Source: Capniomyces stellatus (taxonomy: Eukaryota; Kickxellomycota; Harpellomycetes; Harpellales; Legeriomycetaceae). Taken from it: a stretch of DNA of 64,000 nt. Shown piece by piece: positions 10,828 to 63,844 of this stretch. Made by a program: the position numbers and the translations under genes. The DNA is taken from assembly GCA_001661515.1 (NCBI GenBank), contig LUVW01000023.1, positions 498,977 through 562,976 on the forward strand, read 5' to 3'. The notes beneath the pieces were generated by a model. It made no database searches and was not told the DNA's origin. It saw only the letters and a program-made list of their open reading frames with translations. How positions within the stretch are numbered: position 1 is the stretch's first letter; every line of letters begins with the position of its first letter.

Positions 10828-13549
10828 ATGAGTGGGCTAGTAGCTATAAGAGGAAATGTAAATTACAATGAGGAAATTGAGATAATAACAGAGTTTCTGA
10901 GTAAGTTCAGCCAAGTGAGTGGACAGGAAGCAAAGGCGGCGGTTGGAGATGGGGAAGAGTTGGGAGAGTATGAGGAAAGAGGAGCGGGGAAGCTTAAATA
11001 CAAATACATGGATATGGTGGTAAGAGTTGTTTTTGATTGTAAAAGAGGAGAAAGGTAATGCAAAAGAAGTGAAGGATATTATAAAGGAGATAAAGATAAT
11101 AATAAGAGAGGTAAATGAATTGATATAAATGTAGCAAGAGGTGGCAGACAAAACAAGAGAGTGTATAGAGATAAGTCTTGATGATGTGGAGAGGTTTACA
11201 AAGGAGCAGGAAGAAGGGGTGATTGGGTCACAGGTGGGGGAGGGAAGTAGCACAATTGGATACAGCTCACAACAAAGCGGGGGGATGAGTGGGAGTGTGA
11301 GCAGAAGCGGAAAGTCGGCAAGGGGGGGAGAGGGGAGTTCACGGTCAGGGATAGTGGGTAGGATTGAGGAGAACAGTAAGAGGTATATAGAGGTGATTAG
11401 CCAGGCGGTAGACAGGGTGATGCCAGCAGGGAGAAATTCGACGGTGCTGAGCAAAGAGCAGGACAATGTGCTGGAGGTTATTCTTGAGCAGAGGAGGTTG
11501 CGGGACGAGGCAGATATGGATAGGGATAGGGAGGGATCGGGGGGTAATGGGGGGCAAATGGGGGAAAACGAGCAGATGAGGTTTCCAAAAAAGCTTACGC
11601 GAAGATATACAGTGGTGTTAATAGGAAGAAAGAGTACTAAGGCAAAGTCGATTAGGCAGGTGGGGGCAAAGGAGATGGGGAAGTTGGTGAAGATTAGGGG
11701 AATAGTGACGAGAACAACGGAGGTGCGGCCAATAATGTCGGTGGCAGCGTACTTGTGCGACAGGTGCGGGAGCGAGGTGTTCCAGGAGGTGCTGGGGAGG
11801 CAATTTCTGCCGCTTGACACGTGTTTGTCGGAGCAGTGCAAGAAGCAGAGGAGCAAGGGGAAGCTGCACCGGCAGACGAGAGGAAGCAAGATGATGAAGT
11901 TCCAGGAGGTGAAGATGCAGGAACTGTCGGACCAAGTATCGATGGGAGACATTCCAAGATCGCTGAGCATCCACTGCTACGAGACACTGACGCGACAGGC
12001 AAAGCCCGGAGACATCATTGAGGTGACAGGAGTGTTTCTGCCAAGTCCATTTACGGGGTGGCGGGCGTACAAGGCGGGGCTACTGGCAGACGTTCTGGTG
12101 GAGGCATTCAACATCGAGATGGACAAGAAGCAGTACAAGGACGTTAAGGAGGACGAAAAGAACAATGCAGAGATAAGACGCGAGATTGGGCGGCTGATAG
12201 GAAGCGAGGATGTGGTTGGCCAGCTCGCGTCATCAATCGCGCCAGAAATATACGGACACGACGACGTGAAGAGAGCGCTGTTGCTGCAGCTGGTGGGCGC
12301 GCCAAAGATAACAACGAGCGACGGAATGAAGATCCGCGGCGACATTCACCTGTGTCTGATGGGAGACCCCGGAGTGGCCAAGTCTCAACTGCTCCGGTTC
12401 GTGTCCAAGATAGCGCCAAGGGGCGTGTACACAACAGGCCGCGGATCGTCGGGTGTAGGACTGACGGCCAGCGTTGTGCGAGACAGTCTGACAGGCGAGC
12501 TGGTGCTGGAGGGAGGCGCGTTGGTGCTGGCAGACAACGGCGTTTGCTGCATCGACGAGTTTGACAAGATGGAGGAGGCTGACAGAACCGCGATTCACGA
12601 GGCTATGGAGCAGCAGACAATTTCTATTGCCAAGGCTGGAATCACCACCACTCTCAACTCCCGGTCCAGCGTCCTGGCCGCAGCCAATCCAAGCAGGTCG
12701 CGTTACAACCCCCGCCTCACCCCCGAGGAAAACATCAACCTTCCTGCCGCTCTACTTTCGCGTTTCGACGTGCTTTTCCTTATTCTCGACGTTCCAGACC
12801 ACAATAACGACTTGCTATTGGCTAGACACGTGACTCACGTCCACATGACTGGAATCCATCCAACCAATCAAAACGCGTCAAATCTCATCTCCCCCAAACT
12901 GCTCACCAGTTTCATCGCCAACGCGCGTTCCTTCACCCCAACTCTCGACTCTGAAGTTGCAGAGTACGTTGTTGAGTCATATGTCACAAAGAGAATGGAG
13001 TACAAGCTGCACCTCGACCGCTCAAGAAGCAGAGCAATGAACTCGAGAAACACATTTTCAGGCTCCAGTTCCGCCCCTGATTCTTCTGCCGCCGCCTCCA
13101 ACTCTGTGGTAGGTTCTGTTACCCCAAGATCTCTGCTCGGTATCCTGAGACTTGCCCAGGCTCACGCAAGAGTCAGGGGGTCCAATATTGTTGCCAAGCT
13201 TGACGTTGACGAGGCAAGCAGACTCATGTACGCTGCCCAAGTCACCCTCGACCTGCAGCTCGCAAACTCTCTCCACTCCAAGTCCACTAATTCTGCTGGT
13301 GCCCACTCCTCTGCCTCCAACTCTGACTACATCAGCCACATCTTTATGAACCTCACTGATATGCTGAAAACTCGCAAAAACATCCATCATTCCATCAACA
13401 ATGCCCTTGTTTACAACCTAGCCCTCAAGTCCATAGTCAATCTCGGCTACTCTGAGTCTCAATTTACCAACTGCCTCAACTACTATGACCAGCTCGGTCT
13501 TGTTCAGGTCAACTCTTCAAGATCCAGAATTGTCTTTGTATCCAACTAA
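10828..13549 (+). CDS. MCM7: DNA replication licensing helicase subunit MCM7
   Basis: Two exons, 10828-11019 and 11135-13549, joined in phase; 868 aa. The join gives YMDMV-QEVADKTRECIEISLDDV, matching the conserved N-terminal MCM7 segment, which fixes both splice sites. Features in order: a Ser/Gly-rich linker; a C4 zinc finger (CDRCG then C-x4-C, about residue 272); the MCM OB fold (LVKIRGIVTRTTEV); Walker A GDPGVAKSQ (about residue 474); Walker B CIDEFDK (about 536); and the arginine-finger block SRFDVLF. MCM7 is one of six subunits of the hetero-hexameric replicative helicase loaded at origins in the nucleus. A Ser/Ala-rich insertion lies after the AAA+ core. The first two thirds of the gene use G/A-ending codons and the last third C/T-ending codons, a sharp change within one gene. 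Confidence 0.97.
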
Positions 13550-17857: not shown

Positions 17858-20227
17858 ATGATTTATAGAATAGTGCTAGTATCGTTTTTTGTAACGATGT
17901 TTTCAACCACATACTTTTTAATAGTGGGGCTAAACAGGAGAGGGGTTGTGAGTGAGAATGAGGGACTTTACAGCAGTGGGATTTATGAGAGACTAAACGA
18001 GATAAGGGAGAAGTTCCACAGAAACAACCGGAAGAGAAAATATCAGAGTAGTAGGGGGGGAGGGCAGGAAATAGGAGACGAAAAGTATGGGGATTATAGG
18101 TATAGGGGGGTAGAAGGCAGAATTGAGCAGACATACTATTATATGGCAACAGCAAAGCTAGATAGAGAGGCTGGACTGAGACCAAGAGTTGATAGAGATA
18201 GTGGGAGTTACCTGAGAAAAATATTTGATTCAAAGGTGTTAGTGGTAGTAAAAAAAGCTGTTAGCAGTGGGTATGAAAAGTTGAGGGGACTTTCAGGCAG
18301 TTGTGGGGGGTATACGGGTAGAAATAGTTATGGGAGAAAAGAGAAAAAGAAGGATATGAAGGAAAAGAAAAAGGAGTTTTTAGAAATGTCTACAGATGAA
18401 TGGATAGAGTATCAGTACGAATATGCATCAGAGAAAATAAAGAAGAATCTGGGGGTGGAGGGGTCGTCAAAGGGAGCGATCTGTGCGTCGCCTTCAAAGC
18501 GAAACCCAGACTATTTTTACCATTGGGTGCGGGACTCGGCGTTGACAGTAAAGTATCTGGTTACAAAGCTAGAGGGAAAAGAAAAAGAAGGAAAAGAAAA
18601 AGAAAAAGAAGGAAAAGATAAAAATGACACAATTTACTTTTCCAAGATTAAAGATTATTTAGAGTTTTCAAACAAACTGCTAGACAACATTCATCCTGTA
18701 GGGGGAATTGGGGAGCCAAAGTACCATATGAATGGGAGTTTGTTTACTGGGGACTGGGGGCGGCCTCAGAACGATGGTCCAGCATTAAGGGCAATTGGAA
18801 ACATTGAGTTTGTTTACTACTTGATGGACAAGGGACTGGACTATTCACGAATTCTGTGCGACAATACAAATTTGAGCCAAGAGTTTCAGTTGAAGTTTAA
18901 CAGTCAAACCAGACAAATGAAACTATCAAATATTCCACTAAATCCTTCAAACTGTATTCTGAACTCTGACCTGAAATACCTTGAAAATAACCTCAACTCG
19001 TCTTCGTTTGAGATTTGGGAAGAAGTTAATGGCTCTCATTTCTACACTTCCTTAGTTACTTGTAAGGCTTTTGAAATGGCTGCCCAGCTTTCGTTGAGGC
19101 TAAACAATACCGCTCAATACCTGCATTACTCCAATCTTTTACGCAATTCTGTTCATTCTCTTGATGCCTTTTGGAACTCCAATTCTCAGTTTCTTTCTTC
19201 CACTGTCAATTGGAAAGGCGGTCTATCTGACAAACCTTTTTTTCTAGACTCTCAAGTTGTATTGGCCCTCATTCACACATGGGATTCTTCTACTAGCTTT
19301 TATCCCCCAAACATTATTGGTAGAGTAGGTTTTCTTTTCTTTTCTTTTCTTTTCTTTTCTTTTCTTTTCTTTTCTTTTCTTTCCCCATATCCTATTTATA
19401 TTACCATTATCATCCTTATAATTATTGCTATTATTATTGCTGTTCTTATTGTCTTTTAGGTTTTGAAAACTACCATTGAATTGTTCAAGGTTTTCACCCG
19501 CGAATACCACATAAACAGCTATGGAATCCCCGGTATTGCAATGGTAATTTACCCTAAAATAATCATCTATTATTGTTATTTTAACCTATTTGCCAACAAA
19601 TTATTTAAATTTCCTCACTCTTGTTTTTTTTTCTTTCTTTCCGTCTTGTAGGGAAGGTATCCAAATGATAGGTACAATGGGTATAACTCTGAACATAAAG
19701 GAAACCCCTGGCCTCTAGTCACGTGTGGAATCGCCGAAATGTACTACAAAATCATCATTGCCTCAAAAACATCTAAATCCATCTACTTTGACCACAACAT
19801 GAACCTATTTTTATCTCATTCTGCCTCGCTTATTGCCAATCGAATCCAGAAAAAGTATCCTCTTGCTTCATCCCTTTACAATGACAATAACAAAGACAAC
19901 CACAGTTTGTCCAACTTTACTGTTGCCAGTCTAAACTCCTTAATCTCCAATCTAAACTCAACCTACCCAACCAATCCATCTTCTAATCCCCAAATCATAC
20001 CCCATTCTAACCCCATTTACAATGACATTCTATTGCTGCTTTATGCCTCCGCTGAAGAATTTGTAAATAGAGTAAGGTTTCACTCTTCTTTTGATGGCTT
20101 CATGGCCGAGCAATGGGATAGAAACTCTGGTTTTCACACCGGCGCCCCTGATCTCACTTGGAGCTACACCGCATTTTCCACTATGGTACACCAAAGAACC
20201 TCTGCTAAAAAGCTTCTTTGTCTATAA
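17858..20227 (+). CDS. Glycoside hydrolase family 15 glucoamylase, N-terminally membrane-anchored
   Basis: Three exons, 17858-19324, 19460-19543 and 19652-20227, in phase; 708 aa. Glucoamylases release glucose from the non-reducing ends of starch or glycogen. GH15 hallmarks: NPDYFYHWVRDSALTVKYL near residue 215; VGGIGEPKYHMNG with the general acid Glu286; GDWGRPQNDGPALRA; GNPWPLVTCGIAE; and AEQWDRNSG with the general base Glu670 before DLTWSYTAF. Residues 3-27 are a hydrophobic segment (signal peptide or type II anchor), followed by a basic stem of about 160 residues. No starch-binding domain is visible. A Lys/Glu/Gly insertion (about residues 233-255) interrupts the catalytic domain and comes from an AAAGAAGG-type repeat. 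Intron 1 holds a TTTTC pentamer array. It could serve secreted or vacuolar polysaccharide use. Confidence 0.95.
19329..19382 (+). repeat. (TTTTC)n array in glucoamylase intron 1
   Basis: About ten pentamers start five bases after the GTAGGT donor, forming an extended pyrimidine tract in the 135-nt intron. Confidence 0.93.
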
Positions 20228-43414: not shown

Positions 43415-44382
43415 ATGTCTTTGTCGAGATTTGTGTTCAAATCAACCCTTTGTAAAGCATCCGCCAGTCTGGTATCAACACCAATCCAAACACCCGTCCA
43501 CAACATCTCGAAAATAGGATTAAACCGTAATCATGCTTTAATAAAGCTTGGTGCTGGGTTTTCTACTTGCCCAAAAAACCCAAACCTTCGCAACAACGAG
43601 CAACAAAACAGTAAACAACCAATCGACCTTTCAAATCTATCTGAAAACGAACGCGAAATGATCGATAGATTTATTCGAGTTGACCAAGCTGGCGAAACCG
43701 CCGCTGTTTGGATATACAGAGGCCAAAAGGCCGTTTTAGGAAAAAACAAACGACTCCGGGATCTCTTACAGGTAACCCCCCCTTTTTTTTTAACTCGTGT
43801 CGGCTATATAAACTTTTAAGCTGGGGCTTAAAGTAGATATTGCCAGTGTACATTATCATTCATCACTGTTTGAATCCAATTCATTTTTCAACTCCTGTAA
43901 AAAATAATAATAACCAACTAAATTTTCAATTGCTTTCTTTTCAATTATTTTTGATTCTCCGCTTGTACTTTAAACAGCACATGAAAGAGCAAGAAGATGT
44001 CCATCTTGATTCTTTTAACAAAAAAATTGTCCAGTACAACGCCAGACCAACCATTCTTCAGCCCATATCCGCAATCGGTGGCTTCATTCTCGGTGCTACA
44101 ACCGCTCTTATGGGCGAAAGAACTGCCATGGCCTGCACTGAAGCTGTTGAAACTGAAATCGGAAACCATTATAACAACCAGCTACGCGAACTGCTTCCAA
44201 TTGCCAACAACCCTGATATTGCTGACTTGATGCAAGACATCAAGCTGTTCCGTGACCAGGAACTTGAACATTTAGACACTGCTGTTGATAACGGCGCCCA
44301 CAACTCCATTCTATACGACTGCGTCAATTCTGTTATTAGACGTGGATGCAAAACGGCAATTTGGTTGTGCGAGCGTGTTTAA
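43415..44382 (+). CDS. COQ7: 5-demethoxyubiquinone hydroxylase, mitochondrial
   Basis: Two exons, 43415-43771 and 43978-44382, in phase; 253 aa. Residues 1-55 form a mitochondrial presequence (MSLSRFVFKSTLCKASASL). The di-iron carboxylate ligands are all present: Glu in DQAGETAAVW (residue about 94), E and H in the HMKEQEDVHL segment, E in EAVETEIGNHYNNQL with its His, and E/H in RDQELEHLD. Coq7 performs the penultimate hydroxylation of ubiquinone synthesis on the matrix face of the inner membrane, within the CoQ synthome. The exon junction falls immediately before HMKEQE, which fixes the splice site. Same strand as CTU2, 0.5 kb apart. Confidence 0.97.
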
Positions 44383-45794
44383 CTCTTCACACACTCTCTC
44401 TCCTTCTCTTGTTTGACTTTTTTTTTATCTCTTGTCTAGTTCTTCTTTATTTTGTGTTTAATGCTTGTTTTTTTTAAAAAAAAAAGGCAATCCCATTTCT
44501 ACTGCCACTATTTTTTCACTTTGTTAGTTTTAATGCTATAGATCCAAATTTTATCCCCCAAATACATTTCTTAAACCCATGTAAGTTTAATTTGCCTTCA
44601 TTCTAAGCTCATAATTCTGTTTTTGTTTTCTTTCAGTCAAAATTTTGTTCCAAATATCTTTGTAACACACTAAATCCTGAATCTGATCCGTTTTTGCTAT
44701 TCTTGTGTTTATTATTTGTTATTTTTTTAAAAAAGCCAATATTATACCTCTTTTTTGGTGCTAGTTTCAACGCCGGTTCAAGATCGGATCTTCATCTTTT
44801 ACTTTTATCGGCTCTGTTTGTATGCAGTTTATACTAATTATTGGAAGGTCAAAGGGTTGGTTTAAACTCAAGTCATGATTTCGACAACTATCGCAATCAA
44901 TTTAAAAATCAAAGTACCTTTCTGATTCTAAATCGGGTGAATTCTATTGGACCACAAAGTTAAGCCACACTATTCAAACGCTTTATGTCAACGTCAGCCT
45001 TAGGAAGAGTTTCCAATACTTTAACATCGCCAACACCAACCTAACAACACCAACCAATACAGACTCGAATATTCCAAGCTAGAAAGAGCGCTTTAAATCA
45101 AGGCACAAACTCGATTAGATCAAAAAATAAACATCATTGCAAAACGATTTATAAAGCGGTTTATATTAGCTAAAACAGAAATACAAATAGCCTCAATCTC
45201 ACATTCCTATAATTTCGAATATTATCAAATTTACAATAGACCACTTTGAAAGGATAATTTGTCTTGCATTGGTTGATATGATATATACCAAGAAATGCTC
45301 GACTGGCGAATCAAATTCCTTACAGAAAGAGAACGGTGTCTTTAAGCTCCAGCTCCCACACTGCTAAGCCGCACCCTTTGCATTCAAACTCTTTACAAGC
45401 CAACTTTTGCATCTTTTGTGCCACCCCAAAGTAACTTATAAGTTTCATTAAGCGGATACAGCTGGTAATATCGGAAATGGAACCATATACACTTTTACAA
45501 CTTCTATACCATCAACCTTGTAGATTACATGTTGGTATCTTGGACTTTTGTGCACATAAAAACAAGTATAAATAGCCATATGTTTTCCTAAATAATTACA
45601 CTCATCAACAGTTTATAAAGCATTCAACTCAAATAACGATTCTAGCTATTTAAACACACACACACAGACAAGACAATAACAGCATTATAACAATATTTAC
45701 ATACCTGGCCAGCTAATTCCAGCAAACTACAAACTTTAACTGTTATACACATTTTAACTAAAACAAACCAAAAACACCAACCAAATTAACAAAA
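44383..45794. other. Intergenic and promoter of the repeat-peptide precursor
   Basis: 1.4 kb. The left part is T-rich. From about 45000 to the ATG the + strand becomes A/C-rich, ending with a CACACA run (45655-45670) and an ACCAAACAAAC-type leader, as in efficiently translated fungal mRNAs. A TATA box lies at 45567-45575. No gene seen. Confidence 0.6.
45567..45575 (+). promoter_or_regulatory. TATA box of the Kex2-type repeat-peptide gene
   Basis: TATAAATAG, a strong consensus match, about 220 bp upstream of the ATG at 45795. Confidence 0.65.
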
Positions 45795-46454
45795 ATGAGA
45801 GTATCTTCAATCTTTGTCCTTGCAACCGCCTTCTTGAGCTATGCAATCGCAGTTCCAACAACCGCCGCAGTTGAGGACGTAACCACCGACACAAGCTTTG
45901 ATCCTCAAAGCCATATCTTGCTAGAGTCAGCCGATGGCTCACCAGTTGAACTATCGCCTGATGACTTGCACCTGGTTGATGTGCTGGTTAGCCACCACCT
46001 CTTGACCAAGTACCTTGACGAGATCTTTAACATCAATGGGGATAACTCAACCGAGGGCCAAGCTCCCGAACAGAAGCAGTTGTCCAAGCGCGCCAACTTG
46101 ATCATCAAACACAAGGGAATCTCTGGTGCCCAACTCTTGGCTTACTTTTTGAAGCGTGACGCTAACGAACAAATTCTGAGCAAGCGCGCCAACCTTATCA
46201 TTAAACACAAGGGAATATCCGGTGCCCAGCTTTTGGCCTACTTTTTGAAGCGCGAGGACGGCGGTGAAATCAGTGAACAAGAGTTCTCCAAACGCGCCAA
46301 CTTGATCATCAAACACAAAGGAATTTCTGGTGCCCAACTCTTGGCCTACTTTTTGAAGCGCGAGTACAGCGGGAATGAATTGAACAAGCGCGCCAACTTG
46401 ATCATTAAACACAGAGGAATTTCCGGTGCCCAGCTTTTGGCTTATTTCCTCTAA
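45795..46454 (+). CDS. Secreted Kex2-processed repeat-peptide precursor (pheromone-like), 219 aa
   Basis: Architecture as in yeast alpha-factor precursors. Residues 1-19 are a signal peptide (MRVSSIFVLATAFLSYAIA). Residues 20-99 are an acidic pro-region with one N-glycosylation sequon (NST) and a terminal SKR. Then come four copies of ANLIIKHKGISGAQLLAYFL (bases 46092-46151, 46188-46247, 46296-46355, 46392-46451; the last has Arg for the second Lys). Each copy is preceded by KR and the first three are followed by KR, with short acidic spacers between. The fourth copy ends exactly at the stop codon, which defines the mature C-terminus. There is no CaaX box, so it is not an a-factor type. Predicted fate: ER/Golgi, Kex2 cleavage, carboxypeptidase trimming, secretion of a 20-residue amphipathic cationic peptide. 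Role unknown: pheromone, hydrophobic surface (repellent-type) peptide or membrane-active peptide. I recognise no homologue. Confidence 0.9.
   Translation: MRVSSIFVLATAFLSYAIAVPTTAAVEDVTTDTSFDPQSHILLESADGSPVELSPDDLHLVDVLVSHHLLTKYLDEIFNINGDNSTEGQAPEQKQLSKRANLIIKHKGISGAQLLAYFLKRDANEQILSKRANLIIKHKGISGAQLLAYFLKREDGGEISEQEFSKRANLIIKHKGISGAQLLAYFLKREYSGNELNKRANLIIKHRGISGAQLLAYFL
46092..46451 (+). repeat. Four in-frame 60-bp peptide repeats with variable acidic spacers
   Basis: Repeat cores are 60 bp; spacers including the flanking KR codons are 36, 48 and 36 bp. DNA copies differ at up to nine of 20 codons, almost all synonymous. Confidence 0.95.
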
Positions 46455-55058: not shown

Positions 55059-57097
55059 TCAAAACTTGTACTCGGAGTTTTTGTTTCGTTGTCTTTTCTT
55101 TGCTTGTTGCTGAACGTGCTCGTTAACCATGTCGCTTAGGTCTTCGCCAGTAGGATTGGATGAGCTGGAGATTCTTTCAAGTTCAGCAAGTTTCTTTTGT
55201 TCCTCATACTTTTCGAGCAGCATTTCTTCATCAAGACTGCCGAGTTCACTGGGGTCGAGACTGACCTCGATAGCTTCATCGCCGTGTCTCTTTTTCCGTT
55301 TAGTGGCAGTAGTAGTAGTGGTGGCAGTGGCAGTAGTAGTGGATGTTTTAGTGGTGGCGGATAGATCGTATACGTGCTGTGAGGCCATAATGGTGTTTGC
55401 GGATAGTTCAGTGACTTTGATTTGTTTCTGGGGCAAGACCGTGTATAGTTGTTTAGGTACGTTGTCTTTTCTAAGCTGGATGAGCTCTGGGGTTTCCAGG
55501 CCAGACGCCACACTGGCAATTCCGCTTGGTGTAGCGAGTCCTCTGCCTAGGTGATCAGACTCATCGGCGTCTTGGTCCATTGCAGACTTTTCACCGCCTT
55601 CTTCCTCATCTTCCTCCTCATCTTCCTCCTCCTCCTCTTCTTCTTCTTCATCCTCGTATTCGGACTCAGAGTTGACTTCGCCCCATAAGCTGACTGGGCC
55701 TATGTCGAGGTCCTCAGCTAGCGGGTCGCCACCAGGGCCAGAGTAGTCGCCTTCAGCGAGGCCAAACACGTTTCCGTAAAGCGGACGTCCAAACTCGTCG
55801 ACTGGTGGTCTTCCCCAACCACCTGGGTGGTACCCCCACTGGGCTCCCGCAGGAATAGGCGCACTCAGGCCTGGAATCAGCATGTCTGGGTAGGAAGGTG
55901 GGGGGCCAAACCGCTGCATGTTTATCAGGTATGGTGGCGGGGCGAGGGCCGGAATTCCCAGAGCCTCCTTCAACTCTTCGGAAATCACACCAGCCTCAAA
56001 GTTCATCTGCTTTTTGGCCTCCAGCTCCTTGCCCTCATAAAACATCTCCCCAAACCCGCTCAGATTGGCTGGCTGCTTTTGGAACCGGAAAAACGCATCG
56101 TGTAGGCGCTGGTAGTCTATCACCAGCTTGTTCATCTTTGGCTGCACCCGTTCCCTCTGCTTGCTCTTGCTCTTCAGCGTGTCCTCCTTCTCCTTCACCG
56201 TTTCCCGCATCTCCGTTATCCCCGTGTCTCTTATAAACTCTGGAAGCTCAAACGCCGCCTTCTCCATTCCTCGCTTGTACTGCAGGTACTTTCGCTTCTG
56301 GCTCCAGTGTCTTGGAATCGGCACTGTGTTTCGGTACCCCTTGATGCTCACCAGCAGAATCGGATCTTGTGACGTCACATCTTCCCATTCTACCACCTCT
56401 GGATTCTTCACCAGCTGCTTCAACTCCGCCACTGTTTTTCTTTGGTTTCTCGCCTGCTTATTTTTAGACAGCCCCGTCTCTCCCTCCCCCTCTTCCCCTT
56501 CCGATTCTGAACCCGACTTCATTTCCTTTTCCATCCCTTTTTCTTTCCCTTCTTTCTCTGTCTCTGTTGTATTCTCCTCCTCATCTTCCTATTTACATTT
56601 ACATTTAAAGTTTATTCTCTTTATTTACTGTATCTATATCATTTATCTCCACATTTATCCTCATACTTGCCTTGATTCCTTTCGAGTTCTTTTCAAATCT
56701 TGTAAATATCTCTTGGAACTCTGCAAACGCTGAATCTTCTGCAAAATCTAGTGTTTCTGCTACATACTCGATCTCTACATTGCTCTTCTTTTTATCCTCC
56801 TATAACCAGTTTTACTACCCTTTTCTTACTTTTTCCTTTTTCTTACTTTTTCCTATCTTTATTTTAACTTTATGTTTTATCCTTTTTTTTTCTTTACTGT
56901 TTCTTTCTTACCTTGTCTTGCTTTTTGCTTTCAGAGGTCTGCACTTGCTTCTTCTTACGTCTTCTATTCTTTTTATATTCCGTCTTGCCCTTCTCGTTTT
57001 TATTTCCATTTACACTCTCCGTCTTGTTACCCCCTATCGTCAAGTTTCCCATCTTTACTTGAACCGATGTTCCGTCTGGAACTACCACCGTACCCAT
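55059..57097 (-). CDS. SF3B2: Splicing factor 3B subunit 2 (Cus1/SAP145)
   Basis: Three exons, 57097-56912, 56799-56667 and 56584-55059, in phase; 614 aa. Strongly conserved core: TVAELKQLVKNPEVVEWEDV, QDPILLVSIKGYRNTVPIPRHW, KRKYLQYKRGMEK, DYQRLHDAFFRFQKQP, YEGKELEAK, GPPPSYPDMLIPGLSAPIP and YHPGGWGRPPVDEFGRPLYG, then a Glu/Asp tract, MASQHVYDLS and the terminal EYKF. It is a component of the U2 snRNP SF3b complex, which stabilises the branch-point interaction. The exon 3 acceptor is the AAG at 56587-56585: the AG four bases upstream would put a stop in frame. Exon 1 is short, basic and weakly conserved. Fits a window with intron-dense genes. Confidence 0.95.
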
Positions 57098-62368: not shown

Positions 62369-63844
62369 ATGAAAGTAGTGTCAATTATTTCTCTAGCCTG
62401 TATGCTGTACACTAGTGCATCCGGCGTTCAGGAAAACATCAATTTGAATGCAATCAAGGCAAGAATCAACCAAGATCGCCTAGGTAATGAACAGCTGAAC
62501 GTACTTCAAGAAGATGGCGAGGAGACAGCCGCAAAAGACAGCTACATTGTAAAAGAGGATGAGGACCATGAAGGTGGTCATGAAGGTGGTCATGGAGGAG
62601 GTCATGGGGGAGGTCATGGAGGAGGTCATGGAGGAGGTCATGGAGGAGGTCATGGAGGAGGTCATGGAGGAGGTCATGGAGGAGGTCATGGAGGAGGTCA
62701 TGGAGGAGGTCATGGGGGTGGCCATGGAGGTGGTAACCACCACAATCATCGCAGATGCACAAAAGTTATTTCCACTGTAACAAGAACTGTTACAAAAGAA
62801 GGCTCAGGGTTCTTTACAAAAAAACCAAAGAATAACTGCAAATGTATAAAACAACAAGGTGGCGTAAGACACGATAGAATGTTTTCAAAGATTGACGTTC
62901 CATCATTGGGAACGTTTGCAACAACAAGCAAGCTAGTCTTTGCGGATATCGATGGGCCATTGAGACAACTGAGTTTAGCTACAAGAAACGGAGACCCCAG
63001 ATTTATGGCGTTGAGTGTTAACGCGGGACAGAATGGGTTGAACTATGGGCCAAGCAGAATTACCGAGTTTTTTGGAATTTTGATAGAAACCATGAAGAAA
63101 CATAACCACGAGTTTACAAAGCAGATTGCAAAAGGGTCGGGAGAGATAGAAAACAGAGATGTGTTGAGAGATAGAGTGATGAAAAACATCAAGAGTTTTG
63201 ATGGAAATGAGAAGGCAATTGCAAGATTTACAGCGGACTTGTTTAAGGGGATGTGGGAGGATCAAAATGCAAAGAACGGATTGGTGGACTTTTTGCAACA
63301 TTCATTGTTAAAGTTGCAAGAGACTTCAAGGCCTACACAGCAAAATCTGAATGAGCTTGCAGCGGCAATTGATAAATTTGAAAAAATGATTGCTGAGGTT
63401 TACGGGTGTCACAAAAACTCAATCCCAACAAACTCGCAAATGACGTTTGGACATATTGTTGCTGGGGCTTTGGGGGGAGATAGAGATAGGCTTAAAATGT
63501 TGGTTGACATTACAGTGTACTTGGCAAACAAGAACAACGTGAGATTCGAAACAGATATGGCCAAGGTGCTGAAGGTGTCAGGAACGTATGTCAACTATGT
63601 GATGTTGGGAGTATACGATACCCACACTATGGCGGCAGGAACATCAGTTTCGTTGACCAATAACATCAATGCGCTTAATGCGTACTTGGCAAAGAACAAA
63701 AAGCTTGTGGAAACTTCGCTTTGCATGTACTCGAAGATGTACAACTTGGGCGATATTGACATCAGCGAGTTTATCCTCAGACTGTTCCCTATTATGTTTG
63801 TGATGATGATTATGTTCTTGCTTCCAATCTGTTGTTGTTGTTAA
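62369..63844 (+). CDS. Secreted protein with His-Gly repeat tract and hydrophobic Cys-rich tail, 491 aa
   Basis: A single exon. Residues 1-19 are a signal peptide (MKVVSIISLACMLYTSASG). Residues 67-122 are fourteen perfect four-residue units (two HEGG, twelve HGGG; bases 62567-62734), followed by NHHNHRR, a potential transition-metal binding segment. The main body (about residues 160-465) is helical, without a family I recognise. The last 22 residues are strongly hydrophobic and end in four cysteines (LRLFPIMFVMMIMFLLPICCCC). This could be a C-terminal membrane anchor with lipidatable cysteines or an atypical GPI signal; no clear omega site is visible. Together these suggest a surface-anchored, metal-binding protein, by inference. 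The repeat is coded by near-identical CATGGAGGAGGT units, so the tract probably expands and contracts. Confidence 0.82.
   Translation: MKVVSIISLACMLYTSASGVQENINLNAIKARINQDRLGNEQLNVLQEDGEETAAKDSYIVKEDEDHEGGHEGGHGGGHGGGHGGGHGGGHGGGHGGGHGGGHGGGHGGGHGGGHGGGHGGGNHHNHRRCTKVISTVTRTVTKEGSGFFTKKPKNNCKCIKQQGGVRHDRMFSKIDVPSLGTFATTSKLVFADIDGPLRQLSLATRNGDPRFMALSVNAGQNGLNYGPSRITEFFGILIETMKKHNHEFTKQIAKGSGEIENRDVLRDRVMKNIKSFDGNEKAIARFTADLFKGMWEDQNAKNGLVDFLQHSLLKLQETSRPTQQNLNELAAAIDKFEKMIAEVYGCHKNSIPTNSQMTFGHIVAGALGGDRDRLKMLVDITVYLANKNNVRFETDMAKVLKVSGTYVNYVMLGVYDTHTMAAGTSVSLTNNINALNAYLAKNKKLVETSLCMYSKMYNLGDIDISEFILRLFPIMFVMMIMFLLPICCCC
62567..62734 (+). repeat. 12-bp in-frame minisatellite, 14 units
   Basis: CATGGAGGAGGT units encoding HGGG. 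The middle units are identical; the first two (GAA for GGA) and the last two (GGGGGT, GGAGGT) vary. Confidence 0.97.

Follow-up and report, generated by a model that had tools for sequence, protein, structure and literature searches.

The window, that is, the whole 64,000-nucleotide stretch of DNA analysed here (GC content 37.7%), harbors an intron-free open reading frame (ORF) of 219 codons that runs from ATG to TAA on the forward strand (45795–46454; 219 aa plus stop) and appears to encode a repeat precursor. The parts of this ORF and the promoter-like string described next lie on the same strand. A TATA-box-like string, TATAAATA, is present as an exact match 220 bases 5′ of the ATG (45567–45574) and may be a promoter element. 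The precursor starts with 19 hydrophobic residues (aa 1–19, 45795–45851), judged by eye to be a candidate signal peptide with a site between AIA and VP. An acidic pro-region follows (aa 20–97, 45852–46085), whose computed charge is approximately −12.9 at pH 7 and which carries the single N-glycosylation sequon of the precursor, NST (N84-S-T, aa 84–86, 46044–46052). The first KR site (46086–46091) is located immediately 5′ of copy 1 of a 20-residue peptide, ANLIIKHKGISGAQLLAYFL (aa 100–119, 46092–46151). The residues of copy 2 (aa 132–151, 46188–46247) and copy 3 (aa 168–187, 46296–46355) are the same as those of copy 1, and copy 4 (aa 200–219, 46392–46451) is a K-to-R variant ending at the stop codon. 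Successive copies are separated by KR-spacer-KR segments with the spacers DANEQILS (8 residues; 46152–46187 including both KR), EDGGEISEQEFS (12 residues; 46248–46295) and EYSGNELN (8 residues; 46356–46391). The spacers are unlike one another and have net charges of −2, −5, and −2, respectively. Cys is absent from the whole precursor protein, and the AlphaFold model of the lone precursor sequence, with a mean pLDDT of 47.9, was left out of account. The anatomy given in the initial annotation (signal-like start, acidic pro-region with a sequon, four KR-framed units, acidic spacers, and a last copy at the stop) was thus recovered at 45795–46454, the signal peptide being judged by eye. Just upstream is a COQ7-like gene (43415–44382, apparently two exons; Pfam COQ7 on 43981–44379). 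Elsewhere the window contains a 533-aa ORF of Glycosyl hydrolase family 15 (17858–19459, glucoamylase-type) and a 491-aa ORF rich in Gly-Gly-His repeats with no Pfam match (62369–63844).

The precursor has no dibasic pairs other than the seven KR, all of which are placed on unit/spacer borders. KR precedes all four copies and follows copies 1–3, while the stop codon follows copy 4. That copy 4 stops at just this residue lends support to YFL being the true end of the peptide. None of 100,000 composition shuffles of the precursor reached seven KR (mean 0.66). The fourth residue before the cut is L or F at all seven sites, and the longest segment between Kex2 sites is 97 aa.

Comparison of the four copies indicated that the peptide has been held constant while the codons and spacers have drifted. 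At the base level, 14 of the 60 positions vary among the copies, one of them with three states, and at least 15 changes are needed, of which 14 are synonymous and only one is non-synonymous (the K-to-R change of copy 4). Pairs of copies are 3–11 bases apart, with 3–8 codons differing synonymously and 0–1 non-synonymously. Given a neutral synonymous share of 0.23–0.30, the binomial P value for this excess is 1e-8 to 5e-7 under three transition weights; the test assumes independent sites, and the values are indicative only because the site patterns conflict, some uniting copies 1 and 3 and others copies 1 and 2, which suggests that the copies have undergone some exchange with one another. Since the changes are nearly all synonymous, the peptide is constrained, as would be anticipated were one exact peptide the product, and the pattern argues against an assembly artefact or duplicate. 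The same divergence bears on whether the ORF is a chance product, namely a non-coding tandem repeat. The window is repeat-rich, and 21 frames including the precursor hold an 8-mer at least three times, but the other 20 consist of one- to four-residue units, and copies 3–11 bases apart that differ almost exclusively by synonymous changes argue against a non-coding repeat; we regard such an origin as extremely improbable. A long simple repeat at 1209–1761 of the window generates two-residue repeats in several frames. The third-position GC content of the precursor ORF is higher than that of 16 of the 17 other ORFs in the window, a weak hint that it may be well expressed.

No relative of the precursor was found. 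A word-based search of 5.77 billion protein sequences gave 2145 candidates, none of which matched at E up to 10, and this search likewise returned no relative from other Harpellales. For the neighbouring genes of the window this database did yield Smittium proteins, with approximately 60% identity at conserved genes; because identity to Smittium is only this high even there, a fast-evolving short peptide could escape a word-based search. In the genome itself only 45795–46454 was matched, with no second locus, and the prokaryote and virus collections gave 243 and 21 pattern matches, respectively, with no relatives by tblastn. Two Pfam families hit the full precursor, PF22780 (HI0933-like, 27.6 bits, narrowly above the cut-off of 27) and PF25426 (BCS1 lid, 24.4 bits, short of a cut-off likewise set at 27). 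Both were judged to be chance matches summed over the repeats, and both vanished when the precursor was cut to a single copy. One 20-mer unit with its flanking KR matched no Pfam family at E up to 10. Four PDB matches (E 0.68 and worse) were also judged to be due to chance. The first 14 letters of the peptide returned no paper from the open-licence PMC literature, and a Geotrichum alpha-pheromone sequence had no match in the genome, a result made moot by the rejection of a yeast origin below. The peptide resembles no known pheromone in the sense that the precursor matched none of the mating-factor Pfam families at E up to 10, as had been proposed. As judged from these searches the peptide is new, which agrees with its earlier description as undescribed; that word does not hold for the kind of precursor, since its plan is already known and KEPs are a named class (PMC6339444, PMC7329392).

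The placement of the host was examined with two conserved genes of the window. The three best matches of SF3B2 (55059–56534) were from Smittium culicis, S. simulii, and S. angustum (609, 585, and 538 bits; 58, 57, and 56% identity, respectively). After these came a metagenome protein (52% identity) and then Phycomyces (56%, 495 bits). A 31-row tree placed SF3B2 with the three Smittium sequences (support 100/99), then with Kickxellales (96/84), and then with Spiromyces (99/96). For MCM7 (11285–13549), Smittium accounted for five of the best seven rows (59–63% identity), and the subsequent matches were from Spiromyces (55%), Mycoemilia (54%), and Coemansia. The other two of the seven were a Brassica cretica record at rank 1 (56% identity, 57% of the query covered) and Lingula at rank 3 (46% identity, 80% covered); both were set aside because neither identity nor coverage was in keeping with their high bit scores. 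By these protein comparisons the host groups with Smittium, i.e. it is a Harpellales-like fungus (Kickxellomycotina) of the insect-gut type, and SF3B2 and MCM7 rule out a yeast (Saccharomycotina) origin. The two genes are approximately 42 kb apart in the window; the Smittium simulii tags are BB561_000720 and BB561_000718, for each of which the longest contig is 151,079 bases, suggesting that the gene neighbourhood is partly conserved with that species.

To what extent the host is equipped to process such a precursor was assessed in the genome (24,510,316 bases, 59 contigs). The kexin P domain had one match (C27:80407–80664) within a 794-aa ORF, which aligned with yeast Kexin at 500.6 bits over aa 93–568; the score with furin was lower (411 bits). 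S10 carboxypeptidase had seven matches, some of which are parts of one gene. One of them, L008 (620 aa), was judged by eye to contain a membrane stretch as well as an acidic tail, and its best solved structure was KEX1 with 233.9 bits vs 149.1 bits for carboxypeptidase Y, the structure comparison covering L008 alone among the S10 matches. At the first ATG of the kexin and L008 ORFs no evident signal peptide was seen. On the strength of these matches, the genome carries a kexin gene and a Kex1-like carboxypeptidase gene, the two processing genes whose presence the initial annotation had proposed to check. A second Kex1 candidate is L009 (C16:16530–17753), another S10 carboxypeptidase, which carries a hydrophobic stretch at its C-terminus and shares its contig with the window. 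The earlier view of the ORF as a Kex2-type precursor that repeats a single peptide is supported by the seven border KR and by these genes, and the 20-mer is very probably a secreted peptide released by Kex2. The signal peptide would route the precursor into the secretory pathway, the host kexin would cut after each KR, and a Kex1-like carboxypeptidase would strip the trailing KR from copies 1–3. Copy 4 would need no trimming, since its stop codon falls where the peptide ends. With the acidic pro-region and the spacers discarded, the product would be one linear secreted peptide, which would likely carry a signal from cell to cell within the species.

Candidate receptors were also sought. Neither STE2 nor 7tm_2 gave any candidate in the genome, and STE3 gave only a 14.6-bit fragment with stops, in searches that contained no control match; the proposal to look for Ste2/Ste3-type receptors thus produced no STE2 candidate and only this fragment for STE3. 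Dicty_CAR (PF05462) reached 24.4 bits (cut-off 21) at C15:86539–86820 (minus strand) with one internal stop, and the 68-residue part after the stop scored 17.5 bits (E 0.0025), below the cut-off. The eight other frames at this place had no Dicty_CAR match. This fragment is probably a chance match, because by eye the opposite strand resembles a Dcn1-type gene. In a survey of 1357 genomes, STE2 was reported from Ascomycota alone and STE3 mostly from Ascomycota and Basidiomycota (PMC12842992). Because the host groups with Harpellales and STE2 is reported only from Ascomycota, the alpha-factor/Ste2 pairing is probably the wrong frame, and its receptor is predicted to be other than Ste2.

The physical properties of the 20-mer were calculated with respect to its possible function. 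Its mean hydropathy is +0.80 vs −0.87 for the S. cerevisiae alpha-factor, in agreement with the earlier statement that it is the more hydrophobic of the two, and it is cationic (+1.9 at pH 7). The computed monoisotopic masses of the 20-mer and its K-to-R variant are 2169.27 and 2197.27 Da. Such a hydrophobic peptide, made in many copies per precursor, might coat hyphae, spores or the holdfast, in the manner of the Rep1 peptides on Ustilago aerial hyphae; Rep1 is a repeat protein that is cut by Kex2 and serves to repel water (PMC7329392). According to the same source the Rep1 peptides number at least 8 and are only similar to one another, whereas here there is one near-invariant sequence, which is moreover cationic, and we consider a structural or surface-active role rather unlikely. 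Charge and hydrophobicity together are also what a membrane-active or antimicrobial peptide directed against gut bacteria or rival fungi might display, and the gut habitat suggested by the kin of the host holds competitors. As a helix, the final nine residues show moderate amphipathicity, their moment being reached by 2.9% of shuffles in one of eight tests, but the helical moment of the whole 20-mer (0.23) is below the shuffle mean (0.27) and is reached by 66% of shuffles. An amphipathic membrane-lytic helix, one form of the membrane-active peptide suggested earlier, is for this reason not favoured for the whole peptide. Near-invariant copies are likewise unexpected for a peptide acting through bulk properties, and an antagonistic function appears distinctly unlikely.

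A ustiloxin-type (RiPP) modified cyclic peptide derived from a KEP precursor would share the precursor plan, and there is one Tyr in the core. No candidate for UstYa (DUF3328, PF11807) was detected in the genome, in a search without any control match, and according to a KEP survey none of 185 Zoopagomycota KEPs adjoins a DUF3328 gene (PMC7329392), which makes such a product very unlikely. In favor of a signal, the copies are identical and constrained and the size fits; on these grounds the chance that the 20-mer is a signal and not a surface-active or antagonistic peptide is about even. Our preferred reading as a whole, a four-copy precursor cut by the fungus's own Kex2/Kex1-like proteases into a linear secreted peptide that likely signals within the species, is put forward tentatively, at slightly under an even chance. 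In most other early-diverging fungi pheromones are mostly unknown (PMC6339444). A more specific proposal is that the 20-mer is an alpha-factor-style hormone of independent origin outside Dikarya, with a receptor that is neither Ste2 nor Ste3, and would then be the first peptide signal for mating or conjugation from an early-diverging fungus (Kickxellomycotina); we consider this proposal quite improbable. Capniomyces stellatus, of the gut-fungus order Harpellales, has been cultured (PMC4974312). As the gene supplies one exact 20-residue candidate, whose mass is known, from a single locus, the question is directly testable.

In alpha-factor precursors, such as S. cerevisiae MFalpha1 and the fission yeast P-factor precursor, an acidic glycosylatable pro-region is followed by identical copies with acidic spacers, and the final copy of MFalpha1 ends at the stop. 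The present precursor also has an acidic sequon-bearing pro-region, near-identical copies and acidic spacers, and its last copy likewise ends at the stop. On the other hand, it belongs to another phylum, no Ste13 dipeptide-repeat leader stands ahead of its peptide, it has no Pfam mating-factor match, and its genome gave no STE2 candidate in the search without a control match. Ece1, the candidalysin precursor of Candida albicans, is a Kex2-cut polypeptide that gives several different peptides, whereas here one 20-mer is repeated with a single K-to-R variant and the differing parts are just the acidic spacers of 8–12 residues. The peptides of Rep1 from Ustilago maydis are hydrophobic. Rep1 is a Kex2-type repeat precursor with hydrophobic peptides and the present protein appears to be one too, but Rep1 gives several merely similar peptides and the present one a near-invariant peptide. 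Farnesylation at a CaaX motif requires Cys. The hybrid a-type pheromone precursor of Trichoderma has a Kex2-type repeat layout (PMC3068285) like that found here, but the present precursor has no Cys. Since it matches no Pfam mating-factor family and has no Cys, the precursor would be a member of neither the ascomycete alpha-pheromone families nor the CaaX pheromones, which leaves the claim of the same manner of processing unweakened.

The closest correspondence is with KEPs, of which 7878 were reported from 1345 of 1461 strains, with 11.56 per strain among 16 Zoopagomycota strains (PMC7329392). Many KEP peptides are described as having no known function, and the phenotype of Coprinopsis kep knockouts was undetectable (PMC9769878). 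KEPs likewise have a signal-peptide-like start and three or more repeats with Kex2 sites between them. The present precursor shows no definitional difference from them, its longest segment of 97 aa being under the limit of 100 aa between sites, and in having no homologue found it resembles the 2560 stand-alone KEPs without homologues in that survey (PMC7329392). With its signal peptide judged by eye, it can be placed within the definition of a KEP (PMC6339444, PMC7329392), and its 20-residue peptide falls in the class of 9–24 residues that has been linked to alpha-type pheromones (PMC6339444).
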